Assembly: GCF_018607965.1 (NCBI RefSeq)
Contig: NZ_JABBAM010000095.1
Span: forward strand, 24,760 to 81,645
Length of the DNA: 56,886 nucleotides
Origin: Planktotalea sp.
GTDB lineage: Bacteria; Pseudomonadota; Alphaproteobacteria; Rhodobacterales; Rhodobacteraceae
Direction of reading: 5' to 3'
Below are positions 1,068-56,365 of this stretch, piece by piece. The number at the start of each line of letters is the position of its first letter. Position 1 is the first letter of the stretch. The translations under genes were made by a program, and so were the position numbers. Below the pieces are notes generated by a model. The model was not told the origin of the DNA. It worked only from the letters and a program-made list of their open reading frames with translations, and made no database searches.

Positions 1068-2351
1068 TTAAGTCGCGTTCAGGACATCTTCAAAAGTGCG
1101 CAGACCCGTCTTTGGGGCCTGTACAAGCACAGACATATTGCCCGGCTTGTGTTCGTTACGCAGCATTTTCATATGGGCGGCTGGCAGATCATCCCATTCA
1201 AAAACCTCAGACATGCATGGGTCAAGACGGCGTTCTAACATTAACTGATTTGCAGCCGAAGCCTGCTTGAGGTGCGCAAAGTGGCTACCTTGCAAACGTT
1301 TTTGGTGCATCCACATATAGCGCACGTCGAACGTCAGATTAAAGCCGGTCGTACCCGCACAAATTACAACCATACCGCCCTTTTTAACCACGAATGTAGA
1401 CACAGGGAACGTCGCTTCGCCGGGATGTTCAAACACCATATCGACGTTGTTGCCCTTGCCTGTGATGTCCCAGATCGCCTTGCCAAACTTGCGCGCTTCT
1501 TTGAACCAATCGGCGTATTCGGGCGTGTTCACTGTGGGCAGTTGTCCCCAGCAATTGAAGTCTTTGCGATTCAAAACACCCTTCGCGCCAAGGCCTATGA
1601 CGAAATCACGCTTGGATTCATCAGAAATAACACCAATCGCATTGGCACCAGCCGTGTTGATCAACTGGATCGCGTAAGATCCAAGACCACCAGATGCGCC
1701 CCAAACAAGGACGTTTTGACCCGGCTTCAAATCATGTGGTTCATGGCCGAACAACATACGGTACGCAGTTGCGAGGGTTAGTGTATAACACGCTGACTCT
1801 TCCCAAGTTAGATGCTTGGGGCGGTGCATAAGCTGTTGGGCTTGTACGTTCGTGAACTGGGCAAATGATCCATCTGGCGTCTCATAGCCCCAGATACGTT
1901 GGCTTGGCGAATACATCGGATCACCGCCATTGCACTCTTCATCGTCGCCATCGTCTTGGTTGCAGTGGATCACAACTTCGTCGCCAATCTTCCAGCGTTT
2001 GACCTTGTCACCGACAGCCCAAACAATGCCCGACGCATCAGAACCAGCAATGTGATAGGCTTGCTTGTGCCCATCAAATGGTGAAATTGGCTGGCCAAGT
2101 GACGCCCAGACACCATTGTAGTTAACGCCTGCGGCCATAACCAAAACCAGTACTTCGTGACTATCCAAAACAGGCACGTCGAGCACTTCTTTTTGCATCG
2201 CTGTATCAGGGTCACCGTGGCGTTCGTGGCGGATCGCCCATGCGTACATTTTCTTGGGAACATAGCCGAGAGGAGGCATTTCGCCCATCTCGTACAGGTC
2301 TTTCTCAGGCGCGTCATACGCCACAATTCCGGTTTCGATATCCAGAGCCAT
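1068..2351 (-). CDS. ccr: Crotonyl-CoA carboxylase/reductase
   Basis: This 427-residue enzyme makes ethylmalonyl-CoA from crotonyl-CoA, CO2 and NADPH, the committing step of the ethylmalonyl-CoA pathway for acetate assimilation. It is a zinc-independent medium-chain dehydrogenase/reductase: N-terminal GroES-like domain, a nucleotide-binding motif GASGGLGSYA, and the conserved FEHPG segment. The length matches the family. The track ORF begins 29 codons earlier, but MALDIETGIVAYDAPEKDL is the family start and GGAGGG lies five bases before that ATG. It is downstream of the PlsB-like gene on the same strand. The 149-base gap holds two motifs shared with other EMC genes (2452-2468 and 2375-2387), implying its own promoter and common regulation. 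Confidence 0.97.
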   Translation of the reverse strand: MALDIETGIVAYDAPEKDLYEMGEMPPLGYVPKKMYAWAIRHERHGDPDTAMQKEVLDVPVLDSHEVLVLVMAAGVNYNGVWASLGQPISPFDGHKQAYHIAGSDASGIVWAVGDKVKRWKIGDEVVIHCNQDDGDDEECNGGDPMYSPSQRIWGYETPDGSFAQFTNVQAQQLMHRPKHLTWEESACYTLTLATAYRMLFGHEPHDLKPGQNVLVWGASGGLGSYAIQLINTAGANAIGVISDESKRDFVIGLGAKGVLNRKDFNCWGQLPTVNTPEYADWFKEARKFGKAIWDITGKGNNVDMVFEHPGEATFPVSTFVVKKGGMVVICAGTTGFNLTFDVRYMWMHQKRLQGSHFAHLKQASAANQLMLERRLDPCMSEVFEWDDLPAAHMKMLRNEHKPGNMSVLVQAPKTGLRTFEDVLNAT

Positions 2352-2374: not shown

Positions 2375-2387
2375 GCCGCAACGCAGA
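2375..2387 (-). promoter_or_regulatory. GCYGC-N3-GCRGM element upstream of ccr
   Basis: On the plus strand the sequence is GCCGCAACGCAGA, 24 bases before the ccr start codon. The 12-base core GCYGCAAYGCRG is also found before ecm, mcl2 and mcl1, and a related site precedes mdh. It is the weakest of the set as an inverted repeat (3 of 5 arm pairs) and may lie in the leader. The regulator is unknown. Confidence 0.45.
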
Positions 2388-2451
2388 ATCATTGCTTTCA
2401 AGAAGTGGTAGAGATCGACGCGCAACAATGCAACACATGAAAGTCTTTTTG

Positions 2452-2468
2452 GGTAATTTTATAACCCA
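2452..2468 (-). promoter_or_regulatory. ATTACCC inverted repeat upstream of ccr
   Basis: In gene orientation this reads GGGTTATAAAATTACCC, about 100 bases before the ccr start. Six of seven arm pairs match around a three-base centre. Its right half, ATTACCCAAA, is the same as in the ecm site (4061-4076), and mcl1 has a close copy (55381-55396). It is placed where a promoter operator would be expected. The regulator is unknown. Confidence 0.5.
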
Positions 2469-2500: not shown

Positions 2501-3856
2501 CTATTTTGCGAGGTGCTCAATCGTGTTCGCATAATAGCGAAGAGCAAAGCGCTGTGCGTCGTCCACGACAACCTTGTCACCCTCAACGCGCAGGATACGG
2601 CGCTCACAAAGATGTTTCAGCGCAATCTCTGAAGCATATTCAATGTTATCGCGCGGCATGTGAACATAAGCGTCTTTCATCCGATCTAGCTGGGCTTGCA
2701 TCAATCCAGGTAAGTCCGCGTGCACAACGCTTTCGCGTTCTTTCATCACGGACGCCAAAAGCGGCACAGGCACAACAGGCACCACATCCGCAATCCGTTG
2801 CATCAACTCTTCGCCCAAATGTTCCGCATCTGCATTTCCGTATTCCTGCGCATGTGCCCGCAAGGAAACGGGCGATCCAAAACTAACAGCCGCATAGCCA
2901 AAGCGATGAAAGCGCCCGATGACACGCAGCCAAAGTTGCTTAAAGAAGAACCCTGCGACAACACTTATACGCGCGCGAAACCTGCGGGTTCCGGCAGCAT
3001 CTGCTGCCATTAGTATGCGATCCTCAAGAACACGGTCATAGTTCAAAGCGACGGGCACAAACAAAACATCGCGCCCACCTTCTTCATAGCCGTCCGTCAG
3101 ATATTTAAGCAGACCCAGCTTTGGCGGCGCAATCTTACCGTCCAACGATAGCCCCCCCTCAGGGAACATCGCCTGCGTCACACCCGCTTGTGTCGCCAGA
3201 TAAACATAGCGCGCCAGAACGCGGCGATAGAGATCACCGCGCGATTTACGGCGAATAAAATACGCACCCATCGCCTTGATCAAACGGCTTAGCGGCCAAA
3301 CCCGCGCCCATTCCCCAACCGCATAAGCCAGCGCGGATCGCTCTGCCGCAAGATATGTGACCAAAACGTAGTCCATGTTCGAGCGATGGTTCATTACAAA
3401 AACAACAGTCGCATCTTTGTCCAACGCACTAAGCCCAGCATCGTCATGATACCCTAAGCGCACAAGATACAGCGCATTGCTAAGACCGCGCGCAATTCGA
3501 ATGGCGATGCCGAAATACGCGGTCGCACTGAACGACGGCACGATCTCGCGCGAATATTTGCGGGCCTGTTCAAACGCGACGTTCTCGGGAACGCTATTAC
3601 GTTTTGCATGATCCGCAATCGCCTGGCTGACTTCGGGATCATAGATCAAGCGTTGGATCATGTCATAGCGCCGCGCCAACTTGAACGGTTCAATCGGACG
3701 TTCAAGCCGCTCGTTTACACGTTTTACGACGCGCTCCATACGGCGGCGAAAGAACCAGCGCACAGAGGGAAACAGAAAATGGGATGCAAAGGTAACCACT
3801 GCAAAAAGCAGGATCAGCGAGAATAGCCAAATGGGAAGTTCCACGGTTTGCATCAT
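2501..3856 (-). CDS. PlsB-like glycerolipid acyltransferase
   Basis: The 451-residue protein has one N-terminal membrane segment (IWLFSLILLFAVVTFASHFL) and a glycerophosphate acyltransferase domain with the HX4D motif in NHRSNMDY and the glycerophosphate-binding motif FPEGG. It should acylate glycerol-3-phosphate or lysophosphatidate at the inner membrane during phospholipid synthesis. The start chosen is the first of two adjacent ATGs after AAGGG; the track start 16 codons upstream lies in a basic, cysteine-containing leader unlike the family. It sits between ecm (divergent) and ccr (same strand). There is no functional link to the EMC pathway beyond proximity. The precise acceptor is not determined. 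Confidence 0.88.
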   Translation of the reverse strand: MMQTVELPIWLFSLILLFAVVTFASHFLFPSVRWFFRRRMERVVKRVNERLERPIEPFKLARRYDMIQRLIYDPEVSQAIADHAKRNSVPENVAFEQARKYSREIVPSFSATAYFGIAIRIARGLSNALYLVRLGYHDDAGLSALDKDATVVFVMNHRSNMDYVLVTYLAAERSALAYAVGEWARVWPLSRLIKAMGAYFIRRKSRGDLYRRVLARYVYLATQAGVTQAMFPEGGLSLDGKIAPPKLGLLKYLTDGYEEGGRDVLFVPVALNYDRVLEDRILMAADAAGTRRFRARISVVAGFFFKQLWLRVIGRFHRFGYAAVSFGSPVSLRAHAQEYGNADAEHLGEELMQRIADVVPVVPVPLLASVMKERESVVHADLPGLMQAQLDRMKDAYVHMPRDNIEYASEIALKHLCERRILRVEGDKVVVDDAQRFALRYYANTIEHLAK

Positions 3857-4006
3857 CAAAGGACCCTTGCAGCATGGCCGCCTAGGGTAAATACGTTTCT
3901 TCACAACGGTGCGCGCATTCCCCAGAGTTGGTGGTGGAATACATCACTTCTATTTTGCTACCGAATGCGCGCCCTAAAGTTACGCTGCGGGCGCATCCCC
4001 GAGAAT

Positions 4007-4019
4007 GCCGCAACGCGGC
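4007..4019 (+). promoter_or_regulatory. GCYGC-N3-GCRGM element upstream of ecm
   Basis: GCCGCAACGCGGC is a perfect five-pair inverted repeat with spacer AAC, 78 bases before the ecm ATG. It is the best-formed member of the set at ccr, mcl2, mcl1 and mdh. It lies in the 241-base divergent gap between the acyltransferase gene and ecm. Confidence 0.5.
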
Positions 4020-4060
4020 GAAATAATGGTTGCGTAAAGTTCCGCTCGCACGTATCAAAA

Positions 4061-4076
4061 CGTAATATTATTACCC
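4061..4076 (+). promoter_or_regulatory. CGTAAT-N3-ATTACCC inverted repeat upstream of ecm
   Basis: CGTAATATTATTACCC contains GTAAT and ATTAC as inverted arms around ATT and ends 21 bases before the ecm ATG. The flanking ATCAAAA is identical to that in front of mcl1, giving 13 identical bases (ATCAAAACGTAAT) plus ATTACCC. The closeness to the start codon suggests repression, or a promoter with a short leader. Confidence 0.6.
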
Positions 4077-4097: not shown

Positions 4098-6077
4098 ATG
4101 TCCGATATCAAAGCAGCCATCACAAAAGACCGCCCTTGGTTGATCCGTACATATGCTGGCCATTCAACTGCCAAAGCCTCAAACGCCTTGTATCGTGGCA
4201 ATCTGGCCAAGGGTCAGACGGGTCTATCGGTCGCCTTCGATTTACCAACCCAAACAGGCTACGATAGTGATCACGTGCTTGCGCGCGGTGAAGTCGGCAA
4301 AGTCGGTGTTCCTGTCTGCCACTTGGGCGATATGCGCACGTTGTTCGACGAAATCCCGCTTGGGGACATGAACACCTCCATGACGATCAACGCGACCGCC
4401 CCTTGGCTGCTTGCGCTTTATGTGGCCGCAGCTGAAGAACAGGACGCGGATGTGTCCAAGCTACAAGGTACGGTTCAAAACGATCTGATCAAGGAATATT
4501 TGTCGCGCGGCACCTATATTTGCCCCCCTGCTCCAAGCCTCAAGATGATTGCGGACGTGGCTGAGTATTGCTACACCAATATCCCCAAATGGAACCCGAT
4601 GAACGTGTGTTCCTACCACTTGCAAGAGGCAGGCGCGACGCCCGAACAAGAGCTGGCGTTTGCTTTGGCAACCGCGACAGCCGTTCTTGATGAACTGCGC
4701 CCACGCGTACCCGCTGAGGACTTTCCCATCCTCGTTGGTCGTATTTCTTTCTTCGTGAACGCAGGCATCCGTTTTGTGACCGAGATGTGCAAGATGCGCG
4801 CCTTCGTGGATCTATGGGACGAAATTTGTCGCGATCGCTACGCTGTAGAGGACCCAAAGATGCGTCGCTTTCGATACGGTGTGCAGGTGAATTCACTCGG
4901 CCTGACCGAACAGCAACCTGAAAATAACGTCTACCGTATCCTGATCGAAATGCTGGCCGTCACACTCTCCAAAAACGCCCGCGCCCGCGCCGTGCAATTG
5001 CCTGCGTGGAACGAAGCGCTTGGCCTGCCGCGTCCTTGGGATCAGCAGTGGTCCATGCGCATGCAACAAATCCTAGCCTATGAAACCGACCTGCTGGAAT
5101 TCGACGATCTATTTGATCAAAACCCAGCCGTAGATCGCAAAGTGGAAGAGCTGAAATCAGGCGCGCGTGCAGAGCTTGCCAACCTCGATTCAATGGGCGG
5201 CGCGATTTACACAATCGACTACATGAAGTCCCGCCTTGTGGATAGCAATGCAGATCGCCTGAACAAGATCGAACGCAATGAGACCATCGTTGTCGGCGTG
5301 AACAAGTGGCAGCAGGGCGAGCAATCGCCTTTGCAAACCGAAGACGGCGGTATCATGGTCGTTGATCCAGCAGTTGAGGGCGAACAGATTAACCGTCTTG
5401 AGGAATGGCGTTCAAACCGTGACCAAGCTGCAGTGAACTGCGCCCTTGCAGCTTTGCGCGAAGCGTCTTCCAAAGGTGAGAACGTCATGCCTGCCTCCAT
5501 CGCCGCCGCAAAAGCAGGCGTGACGACAGGCGAATGGGCCGCTGAAATGCGTGCTGTTCATGGCGAATATCGCGGCCCAACCGGTGTTTCCGCCTCTGTT
5601 TCCAACAAGTCAGAAGGTCTTGATGACATTCGTGAAGCTGTAAATGTTGTCAGCGACAAGCTGGGCCGTCGCCTTAAGTTCCTTGTCGGCAAACCTGGTC
5701 TTGACGGTCACTCGAACGGGTCCGAACAGATTGCGTTTCGCGCGCGCGATTGTGGAATGGACATCGAATACGATGGCATCCGCCTCACGCCTGAAGAACT
5801 CGTTACCTCTGCGGTCGAGACAAAGGCGCATGTTGTTGGGCTGTCTATCCTCTCTGGAAGTCATATCCCATTGGTCGAAGACCTGATGAAACGCATGCGC
5901 GATGCTGGCCTTGGCAACACGCCGGTTATCGTTGGCGGCATTATCCCCGATGACGACGCAGAACGCTTGCTCGCGATGGGTGTGGCACGCGTCTATACGC
6001 CAAAGGATTTCGAACTCAACGCGATCATGAAAGATATCGTTATGCTGGCTGATCCAAGCCCACTTGCGGCTGAGTGA
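4098..6077 (+). CDS. ecm: Ethylmalonyl-CoA mutase, B12-dependent
   Basis: This 659-residue enzyme isomerises (2R)-ethylmalonyl-CoA to methylsuccinyl-CoA in the EMC pathway. The N-terminal 500 or so residues form the acyl-CoA mutase barrel (RTYAGHSTAKASNALYRGNL near the start; SVAFDLPTQTGYDSDH). The C-terminal domain binds adenosylcobalamin through the DXHXXG motif in GLDGHSNG and the later SILSGSH and VGGIIP segments. The length is that of Ecm and shorter than methylmalonyl-CoA mutase. GAGG lies about ten bases before the ATG. It is divergent from the acyltransferase gene, and its promoter region shares two motifs with other EMC genes. A GNAT gene and deoD follow on the same strand. Confidence 0.97.
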   Translation: MSDIKAAITKDRPWLIRTYAGHSTAKASNALYRGNLAKGQTGLSVAFDLPTQTGYDSDHVLARGEVGKVGVPVCHLGDMRTLFDEIPLGDMNTSMTINATAPWLLALYVAAAEEQDADVSKLQGTVQNDLIKEYLSRGTYICPPAPSLKMIADVAEYCYTNIPKWNPMNVCSYHLQEAGATPEQELAFALATATAVLDELRPRVPAEDFPILVGRISFFVNAGIRFVTEMCKMRAFVDLWDEICRDRYAVEDPKMRRFRYGVQVNSLGLTEQQPENNVYRILIEMLAVTLSKNARARAVQLPAWNEALGLPRPWDQQWSMRMQQILAYETDLLEFDDLFDQNPAVDRKVEELKSGARAELANLDSMGGAIYTIDYMKSRLVDSNADRLNKIERNETIVVGVNKWQQGEQSPLQTEDGGIMVVDPAVEGEQINRLEEWRSNRDQAAVNCALAALREASSKGENVMPASIAAAKAGVTTGEWAAEMRAVHGEYRGPTGVSASVSNKSEGLDDIREAVNVVSDKLGRRLKFLVGKPGLDGHSNGSEQIAFRARDCGMDIEYDGIRLTPEELVTSAVETKAHVVGLSILSGSHIPLVEDLMKRMRDAGLGNTPVIVGGIIPDDDAERLLAMGVARVYTPKDFELNAIMKDIVMLADPSPLAAE

Positions 6078-12026: not shown

Positions 12027-12043
12027 CGTAATTTTATTGACCC
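12027..12043 (-). promoter_or_regulatory. Degenerate CGTAAT/ATTACG element upstream of sdhC
   Basis: The plus strand reads CGTAATTTTATTGACCC, which resembles the ecm/mcl1 element but with an extra base in the right arm. It directly borders the first TGTGATCACA site and is about 100 bases before the sdhC start. It is a possible weak member of the EMC-type motif set. Confidence 0.3.
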
Positions 12044-12044
12044 A

Positions 12045-12075
12045 TGTGATCACATGATTACGTGTAGTGATCACA
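12045..12075 (-). promoter_or_regulatory. Paired TGTGATCACA sites upstream of sdhC
   Basis: TGTGATCACA (12045-12054) is a perfect ten-base palindrome within ATGTGATCACAT. A second copy with one change, AGTGATCACA (12066-12075), lies exactly 21 bp further on. The same pair at the same spacing precedes sucC (18175-18205). The pair is 116-146 bases upstream of the sdhC start codon. The spacing of two helical turns suggests cooperative binding by one dimeric regulator. The regulator is unknown to me. Confidence 0.6.
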
Positions 12076-12210: not shown

Positions 12211-12905
12211 TTATTTCAACCCTAATTCTTGCCCAATCGTATCAAGCCAACCCGTCATTTCTGTGCACATCGTTACGCTTTGGTCATCAAGATCGTAGAA
12301 TGCGTTTGCTTCACCGCAAGCTGCGATGTTTACAACAATATCACGGGCCATTTAATCTCGCCGTTCAATGTGGCAATCTCTTCCTCGATAATTTGCATGG
12401 GCACATCGGTCCTCAAAACCAGCTGACCACGTAGCGTTGCATCACTCCCCATCTCATCAAGCACCGTGTTCCAACTGTCCGCAGCCAAAGCGTATTCATC
12501 TTCGCAACCATCAGCGTGCTCTTCTGGTAGGTCCAATTCTTGTGCGAACTCTTCCCGCCCATCCGGGTCTGCACCATAAAACAAGCTACTGTATTAAAAT
12601 AGCGCTGCTCGTCTGGTCCGTGCGTATCCCAATATGCAGGATCATTCTGCGCCTCGGCCCAGAACAAGGCCGCACTATCATAAGCAATTTCTTCGGCTGC
12701 ATCTGGTTCATAAAGCGCATCAATCATCAGGATCGAAAGCGTATCCGCCGCATCTTCTTCCTGACCGAAAATCGGAACCTGCATCTGGTGAATCACTGCG
12801 TGACCTAGTTCATGATAAAAGATCGTTAAAAGATTATTGTCAGTGACAATCAGCAAACGCTGGCGAAGGTAGCAACGCCAATGCTGTCACAAAAGCACGC
12901 ATCAT
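12211..12905 (-). pseudogene. DUF4344 putative metallopeptidase, broken by three frameshifts
   Basis: Pieces in different frames together give a full protein of about 230 residues. They are a signal peptide (MMRAFVTALALLPSPAFA), a zinc-protease segment with HELGH (IFYHELGHAVIHQM), the middle part FYGADPDGREEFAQELDL, and a C-terminal part CGEANAFYDLDDQSVTMC ending at TAA 12211-12213. Frame changes fall at the AAA at 12855-12857 (one base too many), the AAAA at 12578-12581 (one too few) and the GGG at 12345-12347 (one too few). The net length is one base short of a multiple of three, which agrees. The start ATGATG overlaps the mch stop, so it was the last gene of the mcl2-mch operon. As written no full product can be made. 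Confidence 0.85.
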
Positions 12906-13933
12906 TTCGGCATCACCACCCAGTAATCGAGGTCCAACAGAACTTGGGGAACGTATTTGCCGTCGTCTCGTTTCAATTCAAATGCAGCGTCCCCTTTGTA
13001 GGCAACAAGGCGTAATCGCGTCGCTCCAATGCTGGGGTTTGAAGTGTCCGCTTTATCCAAAACTTCCGACCACGCACGCACTGTGTCACCGCTGAAACAA
13101 GGATTCGCATGTGCGCCTGCGTTCAGACCCACGATCATCTGAGCATTTGCCAATCCATTGAACGACAAAGCGCGCGCCATAGAAATCACATGACCTCCGT
13201 AGATCAGACGCTGCCCATCATCGCGGTGCATGGCGTCGAAATGCACTTTCGCCGTATTTTGCCAAAGCCGCGTCGCCAGCATGTGTTCGGCTTCTTCAAT
13301 CGTGACACCGTCGACGTGATCAATCGTTTCACCAATCGCGTAGTCACCCCATCGATGCGGATCACCAGACAGTGCCGTGTCGTAATTCGAGAAATCCAAA
13401 CCCTCTGGCAGCACCAGATCGGCCGCATCGATGGACTGCTTCAATTCTGGGACAACCGTTTCAGGCGCGGGCGCATTTTCATCGCGTTTGCGCACCATAA
13501 CCCAGCGCACAAATTCCATCACCGTTTCGTTGTGCTGGTTCAAGCCAGATGTGCGCACATAGACAACGCCCGTTTTACCGCTCGAATTCTGCTTAAGGCC
13601 GATGACCTCGGAAACAGAACGCAATGTATCACCCTCGTAGACGGGCTTTAGCCATTTACCTTCGGCATATCCAAGGTTCGCAACCGCGTTTAGCGAAATA
13701 TCAGGGACGGATTTTCCGAACACAACGTGAAACGCGGCCAAATCATCAATCGGGGACGCAGGCAGGCCACTCGCACGTGCGAATTCATCCGACGAGTACA
13801 GCGCGTGACGCGCAGGATAAAGCGCATGATACATCGCGCGTTCGCCGCCCGAGATCGTGCGCGGCACGGCGTGATGGATCACATCCCCAATGGTGTAGTC
13901 TTCGAAAAAGCGGCCTGCGTTGGTTTTGAGCAT
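12902..13933 (-). CDS. mch: Mesaconyl-C1-CoA hydratase (beta-methylmalyl-CoA dehydratase)
   Basis: The 343-residue enzyme interconverts mesaconyl-C1-CoA and beta-methylmalyl-CoA in the EMC pathway. It is a two-domain MaoC-like (double hot-dog) protein: the N-terminal half starts FFEDYTIGDVIHHAVPRTIS, and the second MaoC-like repeat starts RWGDYAIGETIDHVDGVTIE, with IYGGHVISMARAL in its core. The length equals that of the R. sphaeroides enzyme as I remember it. Its start is coupled to the DUF1737 stop (TAATG). Its partner lyase-type gene mcl2 is upstream in the same operon. Confidence 0.96.
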   Translation of the reverse strand: MLKTNAGRFFEDYTIGDVIHHAVPRTISGGERAMYHALYPARHALYSSDEFARASGLPASPIDDLAAFHVVFGKSVPDISLNAVANLGYAEGKWLKPVYEGDTLRSVSEVIGLKQNSSGKTGVVYVRTSGLNQHNETVMEFVRWVMVRKRDENAPAPETVVPELKQSIDAADLVLPEGLDFSNYDTALSGDPHRWGDYAIGETIDHVDGVTIEEAEHMLATRLWQNTAKVHFDAMHRDDGQRLIYGGHVISMARALSFNGLANAQMIVGLNAGAHANPCFSGDTVRAWSEVLDKADTSNPSIGATRLRLVAYKGDAAFELKRDDGKYVPQVLLDLDYWVVMPK

Positions 13934-14694: not shown

Positions 14695-15552
14695 TTACTC
14701 CGCAGCAAGGGCGTCAATTGCCTTCGCTTTTGCCAGAGTTTCACGTGCGGTGGCAACGTGTAGGTTTTCAACGATGCGTCCATCGACCACTGCAACGCCC
14801 TGTCCACCTGCTTCAGCCTCTTCAAAAGCAGCGATTTGGCGCTGTGCCAGATCAATCTCTTCAGCGCTCGGCGCGAAGGCGGTGTTGGTCACATCGACCT
14901 GTGCAGGATGGATCAAAGTTTTACCATCAAAGCCCATGTCGCGCCCTTGGTCGCACTCAACCTTTAGACCCTCATCATCCTTGAACGCGTTATAAACGCC
15001 GTCCACAATAACCAACCCTTCGGCCTTAGCCGCCAACAGACACAGCCCCAGTGAGGCCTGCATCGGCAAACGGTCCGCGCGAAAGCGGCTTTGCAGCTCT
15101 TTAGCTAGATCATTTGTGCCCATGACCATGCCTTCCAGCTTAGGATGTGCCGCAATTTGCACCGCGTTTAACATTCCACGCGGGTTTTCCATCATCGCCC
15201 AGATCGGTAGATCACCGGTGATCGCAGCCAATGCATCCAGATCAGCGGAGCTTGCAACCTTGGGCAACAGAACTGCATCTGCATCCATCGCGCAAACCGC
15301 TTTGGCGTCATCCACACCCCACTGCGTATCAAGCGCGTTGATGCGCACGATCTTATAGCGCATGCCATATCCACCCGCCGCAAGCGCGTCTTTCAACGTG
15401 TCGCGCGCGCTGACTTTTTCTTCCAGCGAAACTGCGTCCTCCAGATCAAAGATGATCGCATCGACAGGCAGACTACGGGCCTTGTCCAACGCGCGTGGCT
15501 TGGAACCGGGGATATAAAGAACCGAACGATAGGGGCGTTGGCGCATGTCCAT
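14695..15552 (-). CDS. mcl2: (3S)-malyl-CoA thioesterase / CitE-like lyase paralogue
   Basis: This 285-residue CitE-like protein (RSVLYIPGSKPRALDKARSL at the N-terminus, then DAIIFDLEDAVSLEEK) is the shorter malyl-CoA lyase paralogue. In R. sphaeroides the equivalent gene next to mch encodes (3S)-malyl-CoA thioesterase, which pulls the malyl-CoA lyase reaction toward malate. I assign that role by gene order and length. The start chosen (MDMRQRPYRS) has GAGGAAGAG before it; the track start 13 codons earlier adds a cysteine-rich leader. The true lyase, mcl1, is at 55.4 kb. Catalytic acidic residues for Mg binding (E in MMENPRG; D in GTNDLAKE) are visible. Confidence 0.92.
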   Translation of the reverse strand: MDMRQRPYRSVLYIPGSKPRALDKARSLPVDAIIFDLEDAVSLEEKVSARDTLKDALAAGGYGMRYKIVRINALDTQWGVDDAKAVCAMDADAVLLPKVASSADLDALAAITGDLPIWAMMENPRGMLNAVQIAAHPKLEGMVMGTNDLAKELQSRFRADRLPMQASLGLCLLAAKAEGLVIVDGVYNAFKDDEGLKVECDQGRDMGFDGKTLIHPAQVDVTNTAFAPSAEEIDLAQRQIAAFEEAEAGGQGVAVVDGRIVENLHVATARETLAKAKAIDALAAE

Positions 15553-15619
15553 GAACTCTTCCTCGCAATAAAGTTGCGTACAGGTGGTCATTTATTTGCA
15601 TTTCGTTCAAGCACTAAAT

Positions 15620-15632
15620 GCCGCAATGCAGC
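15620..15632 (-). promoter_or_regulatory. GCYGC-N3-GCRGM element upstream of mcl2
   Basis: The plus strand reads GCCGCAATGCAGC, with four of five arm pairs around AAT. It lies 68 bases upstream of the mcl2 start. Within TGCCGCAATGCAGCAA it can also be read as a direct repeat of TGCNGCAA. The same core precedes ccr, ecm and mcl1. Confidence 0.45.
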
Positions 15633-17027: not shown

Positions 17028-17040
17028 GCTGCAGCGCAGC
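17028..17040 (+). promoter_or_regulatory. GCTGC-AGC-GCAGC inverted repeat upstream of mdh
   Basis: This is a perfect five-pair inverted repeat with a three-base spacer, 66 bases before the mdh ATG. It fits GCYGC-N3-GCRGM of the EMC genes, but the spacer is AGC instead of AAY. A second inverted repeat, TTGCG-N6-CGCAA, follows at about 17044-17059. Confidence 0.35.
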
Positions 17041-18174: not shown

Positions 18175-18205
18175 TGTGATCACACGTAAAACTCATGTGA
18201 TCACA
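18175..18205 (+). promoter_or_regulatory. Paired TGTGATCACA sites upstream of sucC
   Basis: Two perfect TGTGATCACA palindromes at 18175-18184 and 18196-18205 are 21 bp apart, both within TTGTGATCACA or TGTGATCACAA contexts. The pair is 100-130 bases upstream of sucC. The spacer contains CACGTAA, as does the sdhC pair in gene orientation. A half-site CCGTAATATTCAC follows at 18251. The arrangement implies that sdh and suc genes share a regulator. Confidence 0.65.
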
Positions 18206-54121: not shown

Positions 54122-55123
54122 TCAGATATCGGCAAGCGCGTCAACCAAGCGATCCGCGCCGTGACGGTATGGATCAACCGCTGGCAAACCCATGCGATCC
54201 TCGACCTCTTTCAGATACGCAACGGCAACGTCCTCGGACATATGCTGTGTGTTCACTGAAATACCGACAACCTTACAGGCTAGGTTTCCAACTTGCGCCA
54301 ACGGCAACGCCGTATCGCGCAACTGCTCAAGCGTTGGCAGTGTGTATGTCGGCAAGCCACGCATGTGTGTGCGTGTTGGTTCGTGGCACAGGATCAACGC
54401 ATCAGGCTGACCACCATGGACAAGCGCCATGGTCACACCGGAATAGGACACGTGGAACAGACTGCCCTGACCTTCAATCATATCCCAGTGATCTTCGTCA
54501 TTGTCAGGTGTGAGATATTCAACTGCACCCGCCATAAAGTCCGCGATCACCGCGTCCAAAGGAACGCCGTTGCCTGTGATCAAGATACCCGTCTGGCCCG
54601 TTGCACGGAACGTGGATTTCAGACCCCGCTCTTGCATGACTTTGTCCATCGCCAAAGCTGTGTACATCTTGCCCGCAGAGCAATCTGTGCCAACCGCCAA
54701 GCAACGCTTGCCTGTGCGTTTGATGCCGTTCGCAATGGGATAGCCAACCGTTGGAACGCGCACGTCGTGCAATGTGCCACCGCTGGTTTGCGCAGCAGCG
54801 ACCAAATCGCCCTCGTCACGCAACAGATTGTGCAGACCGGACGCCAGATCATAGCCCATCTCAAGCGCTTCGATCAGCACTGTTTTCCAAGCTTGGCTAA
54901 TGATGCCGCCACGGTTGGCAACACCGATGACAAGCGTTTTGGCACCGGCTGCTTTGGCCTCAGCCAATGTCATGTCTTTGAGGCCCACGTCAGCGCCGCA
55001 GCCCTCCAAGCGCAACTGACCAACCGAATTTTCAGGGCGCCAATCTTTGATACCCTGCGCAACTTTCGCAGACAGTTGGTCAGGCGCATCGCCCAAGAAA
55101 AGCAGATATGGAGTTTCAATCAT
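54122..55123 (-). CDS. dgcN: DUF1611 protein DgcN (D-glutamate N-acetyltransferase type)
   Basis: The 333-residue DUF1611 protein has a P-loop-like motif VGTDCSAGKMYTALAM, LVIGVANRGGIISQAWKT near the N-terminus and LILCHEPTRTHMRG. In marine Proteobacteria its homologue DgcN acetylates D-glutamate for DgcA. It is the first gene of the dgcN-dgcA-dat row and its promoter shares the 285-base divergent gap with mcl1. The assignment rests on family and gene order. Confidence 0.85.
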   Translation of the reverse strand: MIETPYLLFLGDAPDQLSAKVAQGIKDWRPENSVGQLRLEGCGADVGLKDMTLAEAKAAGAKTLVIGVANRGGIISQAWKTVLIEALEMGYDLASGLHNLLRDEGDLVAAAQTSGGTLHDVRVPTVGYPIANGIKRTGKRCLAVGTDCSAGKMYTALAMDKVMQERGLKSTFRATGQTGILITGNGVPLDAVIADFMAGAVEYLTPDNDEDHWDMIEGQGSLFHVSYSGVTMALVHGGQPDALILCHEPTRTHMRGLPTYTLPTLEQLRDTALPLAQVGNLACKVVGISVNTQHMSEDVAVAYLKEVEDRMGLPAVDPYRHGADRLVDALADI

Positions 55124-55294: not shown

Positions 55295-55307
55295 TCTGCA
55301 TTGCAGC
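55295..55307 (-). promoter_or_regulatory. GCYGC-N3-GCRGM element upstream of mcl1
   Basis: The minus strand reads GCTGCAATGCAGA, with four of five arm pairs around AAT, 102 bases before the mcl1 ATG. Its core matches those of ccr, ecm and mcl2, in reverse orientation. Confidence 0.4.
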
Positions 55308-55380
55308 GCGCACGAATGCAGCTGCAGAAAATTCCCTTGCGAACGCTCTCGCAACGAAATAACTCTAACGCAGATCAAAA

Positions 55381-55396
55381 CGTAATTAAATTACCC
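55381..55396 (+). promoter_or_regulatory. CGTAAT-N3-ATTACCC inverted repeat upstream of mcl1
   Basis: CGTAATTAAATTACCC has GTAAT and ATTAC arms around TAA, and ends 12 bases before the mcl1 ATG, touching the ribosome-binding site GAAAGG. The ATCAAAA to its left is identical to that of ecm. Confidence 0.6.
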
Positions 55397-55408: not shown

Positions 55409-56365
55409 ATGAGCTTCCGCATCCAACCTACACCCGTTGCACGTCCCAACCGCTGCCAGCTTTTCGGACCCGGTTCTCGCCCTGCGATCTTTGAGAAAAT
55501 GGCAGCAAGTGCTGCAGACGTCATCAACCTTGATCTTGAAGACAGCGTCGCACCGTCCGACAAAGACAGCGCGCGTGCCAATGTGATCAAAGCGATCAGC
55601 GATGTGGATTGGGGCGACAAGACGCTGTCCGTGCGCATCAACGGTCTCGATACACCTTATTGGTATCGCGATGTTGTGGACCTTTTGGAACAAGCAGGCG
55701 AGCGATTAGATCAAATCATGATCCCCAAAGTGGGTTGCGCTGCCGATATCTATGCAGTCGACGCACTGGTCACAGCGATCGAAACCGCAAAAGGGCGCAC
55801 CAAGCCGATTTCATTTGAAGTCATCATCGAAAGTGCTGCTGGCATTGCCCACGTCGAAGAGATCGCCGCCGCCTCCCCCCGCCTCCAAGCGATGAGCCTT
55901 GGCGCAGCCGATTTCGCGGCCTCCATGGGCATGGCAACGACGGGCATCGGCGGCACACAAGCCAACTACTACATGATCCACGAAGGCCAGAAACATTGGT
56001 CCGACCCGTGGCACTGGGCACAGGCCGCAATCGTCGCCGCCTGCCGCACGCACGGCGTTTTGCCTGTCGATGGACCGTTCGGCGACTTCTCTGATGACGA
56101 GGGCTTTGTCGCCCAAGCACGCCGTTCCGCAACCCTAGGCATGGTCGGAAAATGGGCAATCCACCCTAAACAAATCGCACTGTCTAACGAGGTGTTCACC
56201 CCCTCCACCGAGGCCGTCGCAGAAGCCCGCGAAATCCTAGCCGCGATGGAAACGGCAAAAGCCAACGGCGAAGGCGCAACCGTTTACAAAGGCCGCTTGG
56301 TCGACATCGCGTCGATCAAACAGGCCGAAGTGATCGTGCGCAGTTCTGAGATGATGGGCGGCTAA
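55409..56365 (+). CDS. mcl1: L-malyl-CoA/beta-methylmalyl-CoA lyase
   Basis: The 318-residue CitE-like enzyme splits beta-methylmalyl-CoA to glyoxylate and propionyl-CoA and condenses glyoxylate with acetyl-CoA to malyl-CoA, ending the EMC pathway. PTPVARPNRCQLFGPGSRPA at the N-terminus, DVINLDLEDSVAPSDKDSAR, SFEVIIESAAGIAHVEEIAA (metal-binding Glu) and MVGKWAIHPKQIALSNEVF are typical. Length and sequence agree closely with R. sphaeroides Mcl1 as I remember it. The track start is 36 codons early; GAAAGG is six bases before the chosen ATG. Its stop overlaps the stop of the znuA-like gene. Confidence 0.96.
   Translation: MSFRIQPTPVARPNRCQLFGPGSRPAIFEKMAASAADVINLDLEDSVAPSDKDSARANVIKAISDVDWGDKTLSVRINGLDTPYWYRDVVDLLEQAGERLDQIMIPKVGCAADIYAVDALVTAIETAKGRTKPISFEVIIESAAGIAHVEEIAAASPRLQAMSLGAADFAASMGMATTGIGGTQANYYMIHEGQKHWSDPWHWAQAAIVAACRTHGVLPVDGPFGDFSDDEGFVAQARRSATLGMVGKWAIHPKQIALSNEVFTPSTEAVAEAREILAAMETAKANGEGATVYKGRLVDIASIKQAEVIVRSSEMMGG

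Follow-up and report, generated by a model that had tools for sequence, protein, structure and literature searches.

The window, that is, the whole 56,886-nucleotide stretch of Planktotalea sp. DNA analysed here, carries ccr, ecm, mcl2, mch and mcl1 (Table 1), genes of the ethylmalonyl-CoA (EMC) pathway. This pathway plays a central role in how abundant marine bacteria assimilate acetate, and it has been put to use in metabolic engineering. Between ccr and ecm, a glycerol-3-phosphate-acyltransferase-like gene (2501-3904, minus strand) is encoded on the same strand as ccr, and mcl1 is divergent from a DUF1611-family gene (54122-55123, minus strand; dgcN in the original prediction).

Table 1. 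Genes, predicted operator sites and other promoter features at the EMC loci (window coordinates)
Feature	Position	Strand	Remarks
ccr, crotonyl-CoA carboxylase/reductase	1068..2351	-	Start corrected to conserved ATG (MALDIETG) at 2351; ORF call began too early
PhaR-like box before ccr	2376..2386
Second ccr site	2420..2435	-	TGTTGCATTGTTGCGC; 31 bp downstream of the first; right half only
Divergent site upstream of ccr	2451..2466	-	GGTTATAAAATTACCC
PhaR-like box before ecm	4008..4018		CCGCAACGCGG
Inferred ecm promoter	4030..4058	+	-35 TTGCGT (4030-4035), 17-bp spacer, -10 TATCAA (4053-4058); read from the sequence against relatives
Second, weak ecm site	4030..4045	+	Right half only here; exactly 31 bp upstream of strong site; offset scan of 91 ecm promoters
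Strong predicted operator site before ecm	4061..4076	+	CGTAATATTATTACCC; exact genome match, family conservation, PWM rank
ecm, ethylmalonyl-CoA mutase	4098..6077	+	ATG at 4098; B12-dependent acyl-CoA mutase domains; name from original prediction and known EMC enzymes
mch, mesaconyl-CoA hydratase	12902..13933	-	Downstream of mcl2
mcl2, CitE-like malyl-CoA thioesterase	14695..15552	-	True start at 15552
Predicted operator site before mcl2	15563..15578	-	CGCAACTTTATTGCGA; PWM scan; kept in 34/48 mcl2 promoters
PhaR-like box before mcl2	15621..15631
Exact PhaR consensus box before mcl1	55296..55306		CTGCATTGCAG
Second mcl1 site	55350..55365	+	CGCAACGAAATAACTC; exactly 31 bp upstream of strong site
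Strong predicted operator site before mcl1	55381..55396	+	CGTAATTAAATTACCC; exact genome match, family conservation, PWM rank
mcl1, L-malyl-CoA/beta-methylmalyl-CoA lyase	55409..56365	+	ATG at 55409

A conserved palindrome upstream of ecm and mcl1

The leaders of ecm and mcl1 have ATCAAAACGTAAT-N3-ATTACCC in common, with 20 of 23 positions identical when the flank is included, and the shared inverted repeat of the original prediction is indeed present at both genes. A pattern search of the whole 3.0 Mb genome retrieved CGTAATNNNATTACSY without mismatch only twice, at these two sites, both of them in front of EMC genes, which is not the distribution of a motif occurring at random. When up to three mismatches were allowed, the 15 matches obtained were unremarkable in view of the 8.5 expected within the window alone.

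Orthologues of ecm were drawn from 80 named genomes and those of mcl1 from relatives; in both sets the element is found at a constant position immediately before the gene, confirming the conservation on which the original prediction had been staked. The family-wide consensus reads CGnAA-N5-TTnC(C/G), with G2, A4, A5, T11, T12 and C14 being near-invariant in ecm. In a cross-validated PWM scan, in which the gene under test was never part of the training set, a threshold of 12 bits was reached by 84/97 ecm, 18/34 mcl1, 34/48 mcl2, 23/32 coaD and 38/39 lrp promoters, and by about 1% of dinucleotide-shuffled promoters; conservation at this threshold thus extends to only about half of the mcl1 orthologues. 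The element lies at about -26 in ecm, mcl1 and mcl2, at -63 in lrp and at -42 in coaD. We conclude from these sequence comparisons that the palindrome is a predicted control element conserved better than chance would allow.

Other genes carrying the motif

Within the window, a PWM trained on the ecm and mcl1 sites ranked these first and second and placed third a site absent from the original list, 11 bp before the mcl2 ATG. Since the matrix had been built from the ecm and mcl1 sites and the match falls on another EMC gene, the mcl2 site represents an out-of-sample match. Judging from gene order and strand, mcl2 and mch are presumably co-transcribed, with mcl2 heading the operon.

Outside the window, CGCAATATTGTTGCG precedes coaD, encoding phosphopantetheine adenylyltransferase (G000:C103:12192-12206), a sequence that most family genomes share with few or no changes. 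The predicted regulon is therefore not purely devoted to the EMC pathway, as coaD and the gene of the presumed regulator itself (see below) also bear the site; via coaD, the operator seems to extend to CoA synthesis as well. Only two congeners have sites at a CBS-domain gene that neighbours coaD.

An identical palindrome is located outside the window at G000:C27:33637-33651, between genes for a D-2-hydroxyacid dehydrogenase (glyoxylate-reductase-like) and an SH3-type protein, in three congeners. This site is not kept outside the genus; the dehydrogenase gene was therefore rejected as a regulon member and used as a control, for which 4/32 promoters reached 12 bits, including matches from the window's own genus.

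Paired sites and promoter architecture

The strong ecm site would span about -4 to +12 of the predicted promoter. Many relatives have TTGACA-N18-TATAAT-like elements directly before the palindrome in their ecm promoters, which would likewise put the site at about +1. When all offsets around the strong site were scanned, the best second position was -31 in ecm (91 promoters) and mcl1 (27 promoters) and -21 in lrp (39 promoters), these offsets standing approximately 4 to 6 standard deviations above the remaining ones. For mcl2, -31 was again the top offset, but weak, and coaD displayed no clear partner. Spacings of 21 and 31 bp correspond to two and three helical turns, and since ecm, mcl1 and ccr differ in where the pair sits with respect to the promoter, promoter geometry does not suffice to explain the common spacing.

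The relaxed copy claimed for ccr survives only in part. It is present approximately 100 bp upstream of the conserved ccr start and retains a conserved core, and a scan anchored on this core (GGTYATAAAATTAC) yielded +31 as the best other offset, that is, the same 31-bp geometry; the element is, however, divergent and below threshold, with 1/81 ccr promoters attaining 12 bits (median 5.6, against 1.1 for shuffles). Based on this divergent upstream pair and its spacing, ccr probably belongs to the regulon. The proposed operator of an EMC-pathway regulator is thus supported for ecm and mcl1, to which mcl2(-mch) can be added, whereas ccr possesses only a divergent relative of it and sdhC has to be withdrawn (see the last section).

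An Lrp/AsnC-family protein as the candidate regulator

The original prediction could not name the regulator. We searched a tightened pattern across the Planktotalea genome and two congeners; the total number of matches was not above that of a reversed control, and the argument therefore rests on recurrence at the same genes and not on the raw count. In all three genomes, matches precede coaD and a gene (hereafter lrp) for a regulator of the Lrp/AsnC family. Residues 4-149 of the Planktotalea protein, P0004 (166 aa; G000:C123:1191-1691, in the same genome but outside the window), match the Lrp and AsnC models, and most of its length is matched by solved Lrp/AsnC structures; these profile and structure matches cover the N-terminal HTH and the RAM ligand domain typical of the family. 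While HMM and PDB matches place it in one family with E. coli Lrp, AsnC and PutR, P0004 differs from E. coli Lrp in not being its equivalog (121.2 bits against the NCBIfam NF008370 cut-off of 233).

Members of the Lrp/AsnC family recognize palindromic, AT-centred sites, often in tandem, helically phased copies, and autoregulation is usual. Both the phasing (-31 in ecm and mcl1, -21 in lrp) and the presence of the motif in the regulator's own promoter are observed here. Orthologues of lrp with at least 69% identity occur in 37/41 family genomes, and all 32 of the family lrp promoters inspected first contained the motif, mostly as a pair exactly 21 bp apart. In other alphaproteobacterial families, 18/28 lrp promoters scored at least 12 bits, a level reached by 0.3% of shuffles and likewise by 0.3% of other stretches taken from these loci. 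In alphaproteobacteria lrp usually resides beside trxB; where trxB was not found adjacent, the site was still present in 9/16 loci, indicating that lrp, and not trxB alone, is the target. The promoter of an Lrp paralogue encoded inside the window was without the motif in the same scan.

Four of the 41 family genomes (G013, G019, G034 and G062) have no lrp orthologue. Of their EMC promoters, 1/11 reached 11 bits, versus 63/76 in the remaining genomes (Fisher 2.7e-6, a value that is indicative only, as related promoters were counted as independent and the 11-bit threshold was chosen after inspection). Completeness is high for G019 (98%) and G034 (97%) and lower for G013 (82%) and G062 (74%), from which lrp may be missing in the assembly only; G013 retains a good ecm site. 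The four genomes do not form one clade in the ecm protein tree, where G034 is placed within the roseobacters at modest support and the partner of G013 is G022, a genome that possesses an lrp orthologue. The motif in the lrp promoter and this co-loss together point to an Lrp/AsnC-family protein as the candidate for the regulator.

PhaR-like boxes suggest a second input

Boxes of the CTGCN3GCRG type were detected in 92/97 ecm, 78/81 ccr, 38/48 mcl2, 9/34 mcl1 and 0/39 lrp promoters (2-5% in shuffles). They match the published site of the PHB-sensing repressor PhaR/AniA and constitute an element separate from the palindrome, located in the same promoters. In the window, CTGCNNNGCAG is exact at mcl1 and mdh and relaxed at ccr, ecm and mcl2; the mdh box lies at 17029-17039. 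As R. sphaeroides PhaR binds CTGCNNNGCAG (PMC12542648) and a phaR gene is present in the Planktotalea genome, it is plausible that the EMC genes also receive a parallel input from PhaR. PhaR has also been reported to influence the partitioning of acetyl-CoA flux in Methylorubrum extorquens (PMC6520949).

Which protein reads the palindrome?

We consider it likely that the protein reading the palindrome as its operator is an Lrp/AsnC-family factor that regulates its own gene and is orthologous to P0004. A motif upstream of a regulator gene is by itself no demonstration of autoregulation, and the metabolic genes bear the same sites; lrp might accordingly be a member of the regulon and not its head, with another DNA-binding protein reading the palindrome. 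We regard this as rather unlikely, given that the site tracks lrp across other alphaproteobacterial families, also without adjacent trxB, that it is mostly gone from the EMC promoters of genomes devoid of lrp, and that an Lrp oligomer would fit sites paired in helical phase. The letters of the operator would, at first sight, suggest a HexR/RccR-like regulator of the RpiR family, as the mcl1 site resembles that of HexR and is almost the HexR consensus. There is, however, no PF01418 protein in the Planktotalea genome, and the family is lacking in a quarter (9/36) of the near-complete family genomes, including G028, which retains the motif in its mcl1 and ecm promoters; with the protein family absent where the motif is present, an RpiR-family binder was ruled out and has next to no chance of being correct.

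It is very unlikely that PhaR is the main EMC regulator and the palindrome secondary: despite its boxes in most ecm, ccr and mcl2 promoters and the availability of phaR in the genome, such a scheme leaves the palindrome, a separate element, unexplained, not least in the lrp promoters, which carry it without any PhaR-type box. PhaR is plausibly a parallel input more than a rival. Still less credible, indeed highly improbable, is that the palindrome arose by chance or belongs to the core promoter or leader and is no operator; in ecm, mcl1 and mcl2 the site does adjoin the inferred -10 and sits a short distance from the ATG, but its position varies from gene to gene and the control dehydrogenase promoters are mostly without it.

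Comparison with known systems

In Rhodobacterales, the ScfR regulators PccR, RamB and MccR control neighbouring acyl-CoA pathways (PMC10370305). RamB class 2 is characterized by two near-identical boxes with an 18-bp spacer (PMC10370305); the palindromes observed here are paired at 31 or 21 bp, start to start. Deletion of Pden_4472 (PccR-like) or Pden_1350 (MccR-like) left expression of a ccr reporter unchanged (PMC10370305); this 2023 Paracoccus study thus found two ScfR candidates to be without effect on Ccr expression, and it describes the signal that turns the EMC pathway down as unknown (PMC10370305). CcrR of Methylobacterium extorquens, cited there as a dedicated ccr activator of the TetR family, would be like our candidate in acting on ccr, but belongs to another protein family and another order. 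In the open-licence literature, we found no paper linking Lrp to the EMC pathway or describing a CGnAA-N5-TTnCG site and EMC targets. The specific regulator gene, operator and target list proposed here from sequence for EMC control in Rhodobacterales would supply a missing piece in the control of this pathway by these marine bacteria.

A model for EMC control

If the Lrp/AsnC-family factor does read the palindrome, dimers within a larger Lrp oligomer would be expected to occupy both sites along one face of the helix. The direction of control can be suggested from site position alone. With the strong site over the inferred transcription start in ecm, and just before the gene in mcl1 and mcl2, effector-controlled repression would be likeliest at these three genes, and the overlap of the site with the inferred -35 in lrp makes negative autoregulation likely. 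The divergent pair lies upstream of ccr, and there the factor may activate. As a guess, the effector might be an amino acid or a different cue reporting acetyl-CoA/C2 supply, and PhaR would probably provide a second input on the same promoters. We advance more tentatively the wider possibility that an ancient Lrp of the alphaproteobacteria, autoregulated and usually encoded beside trxB, serves as the dedicated Rhodobacterales regulator coupling CoA synthesis (coaD) to acetyl-CoA assimilation (ecm, mcl1, mcl2-mch and ccr) jointly with PhaR, such that EMC flux might be set by PHB status together with the status of amino acids or CoA esters.

A distinct element at sdhC and sucC

A partial copy of the palindrome had also been claimed for sdhC and half-sites for sucC and dgcN. 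The sdhC copy exists in the window (12027-12042), but is not conserved in relatives, and the half-sites have no prominence in the PWM scan of the window. As a regulon member, sdhC was rejected: 1/45 promoters scores high, and that locus is apparently misassigned, the match being the ecm site on the same contig. Paired GTGATCAC boxes, 20-21 bp apart, are carried by 44/45 promoters of sdhC orthologues, and this pair looks like the operator of a separate TCA-cycle regulator. In the window, the (T)GTGATCAC(A) palindrome pair, 21 bp apart, is found before both sdhC (12045-12075) and sucC (18175-18205).
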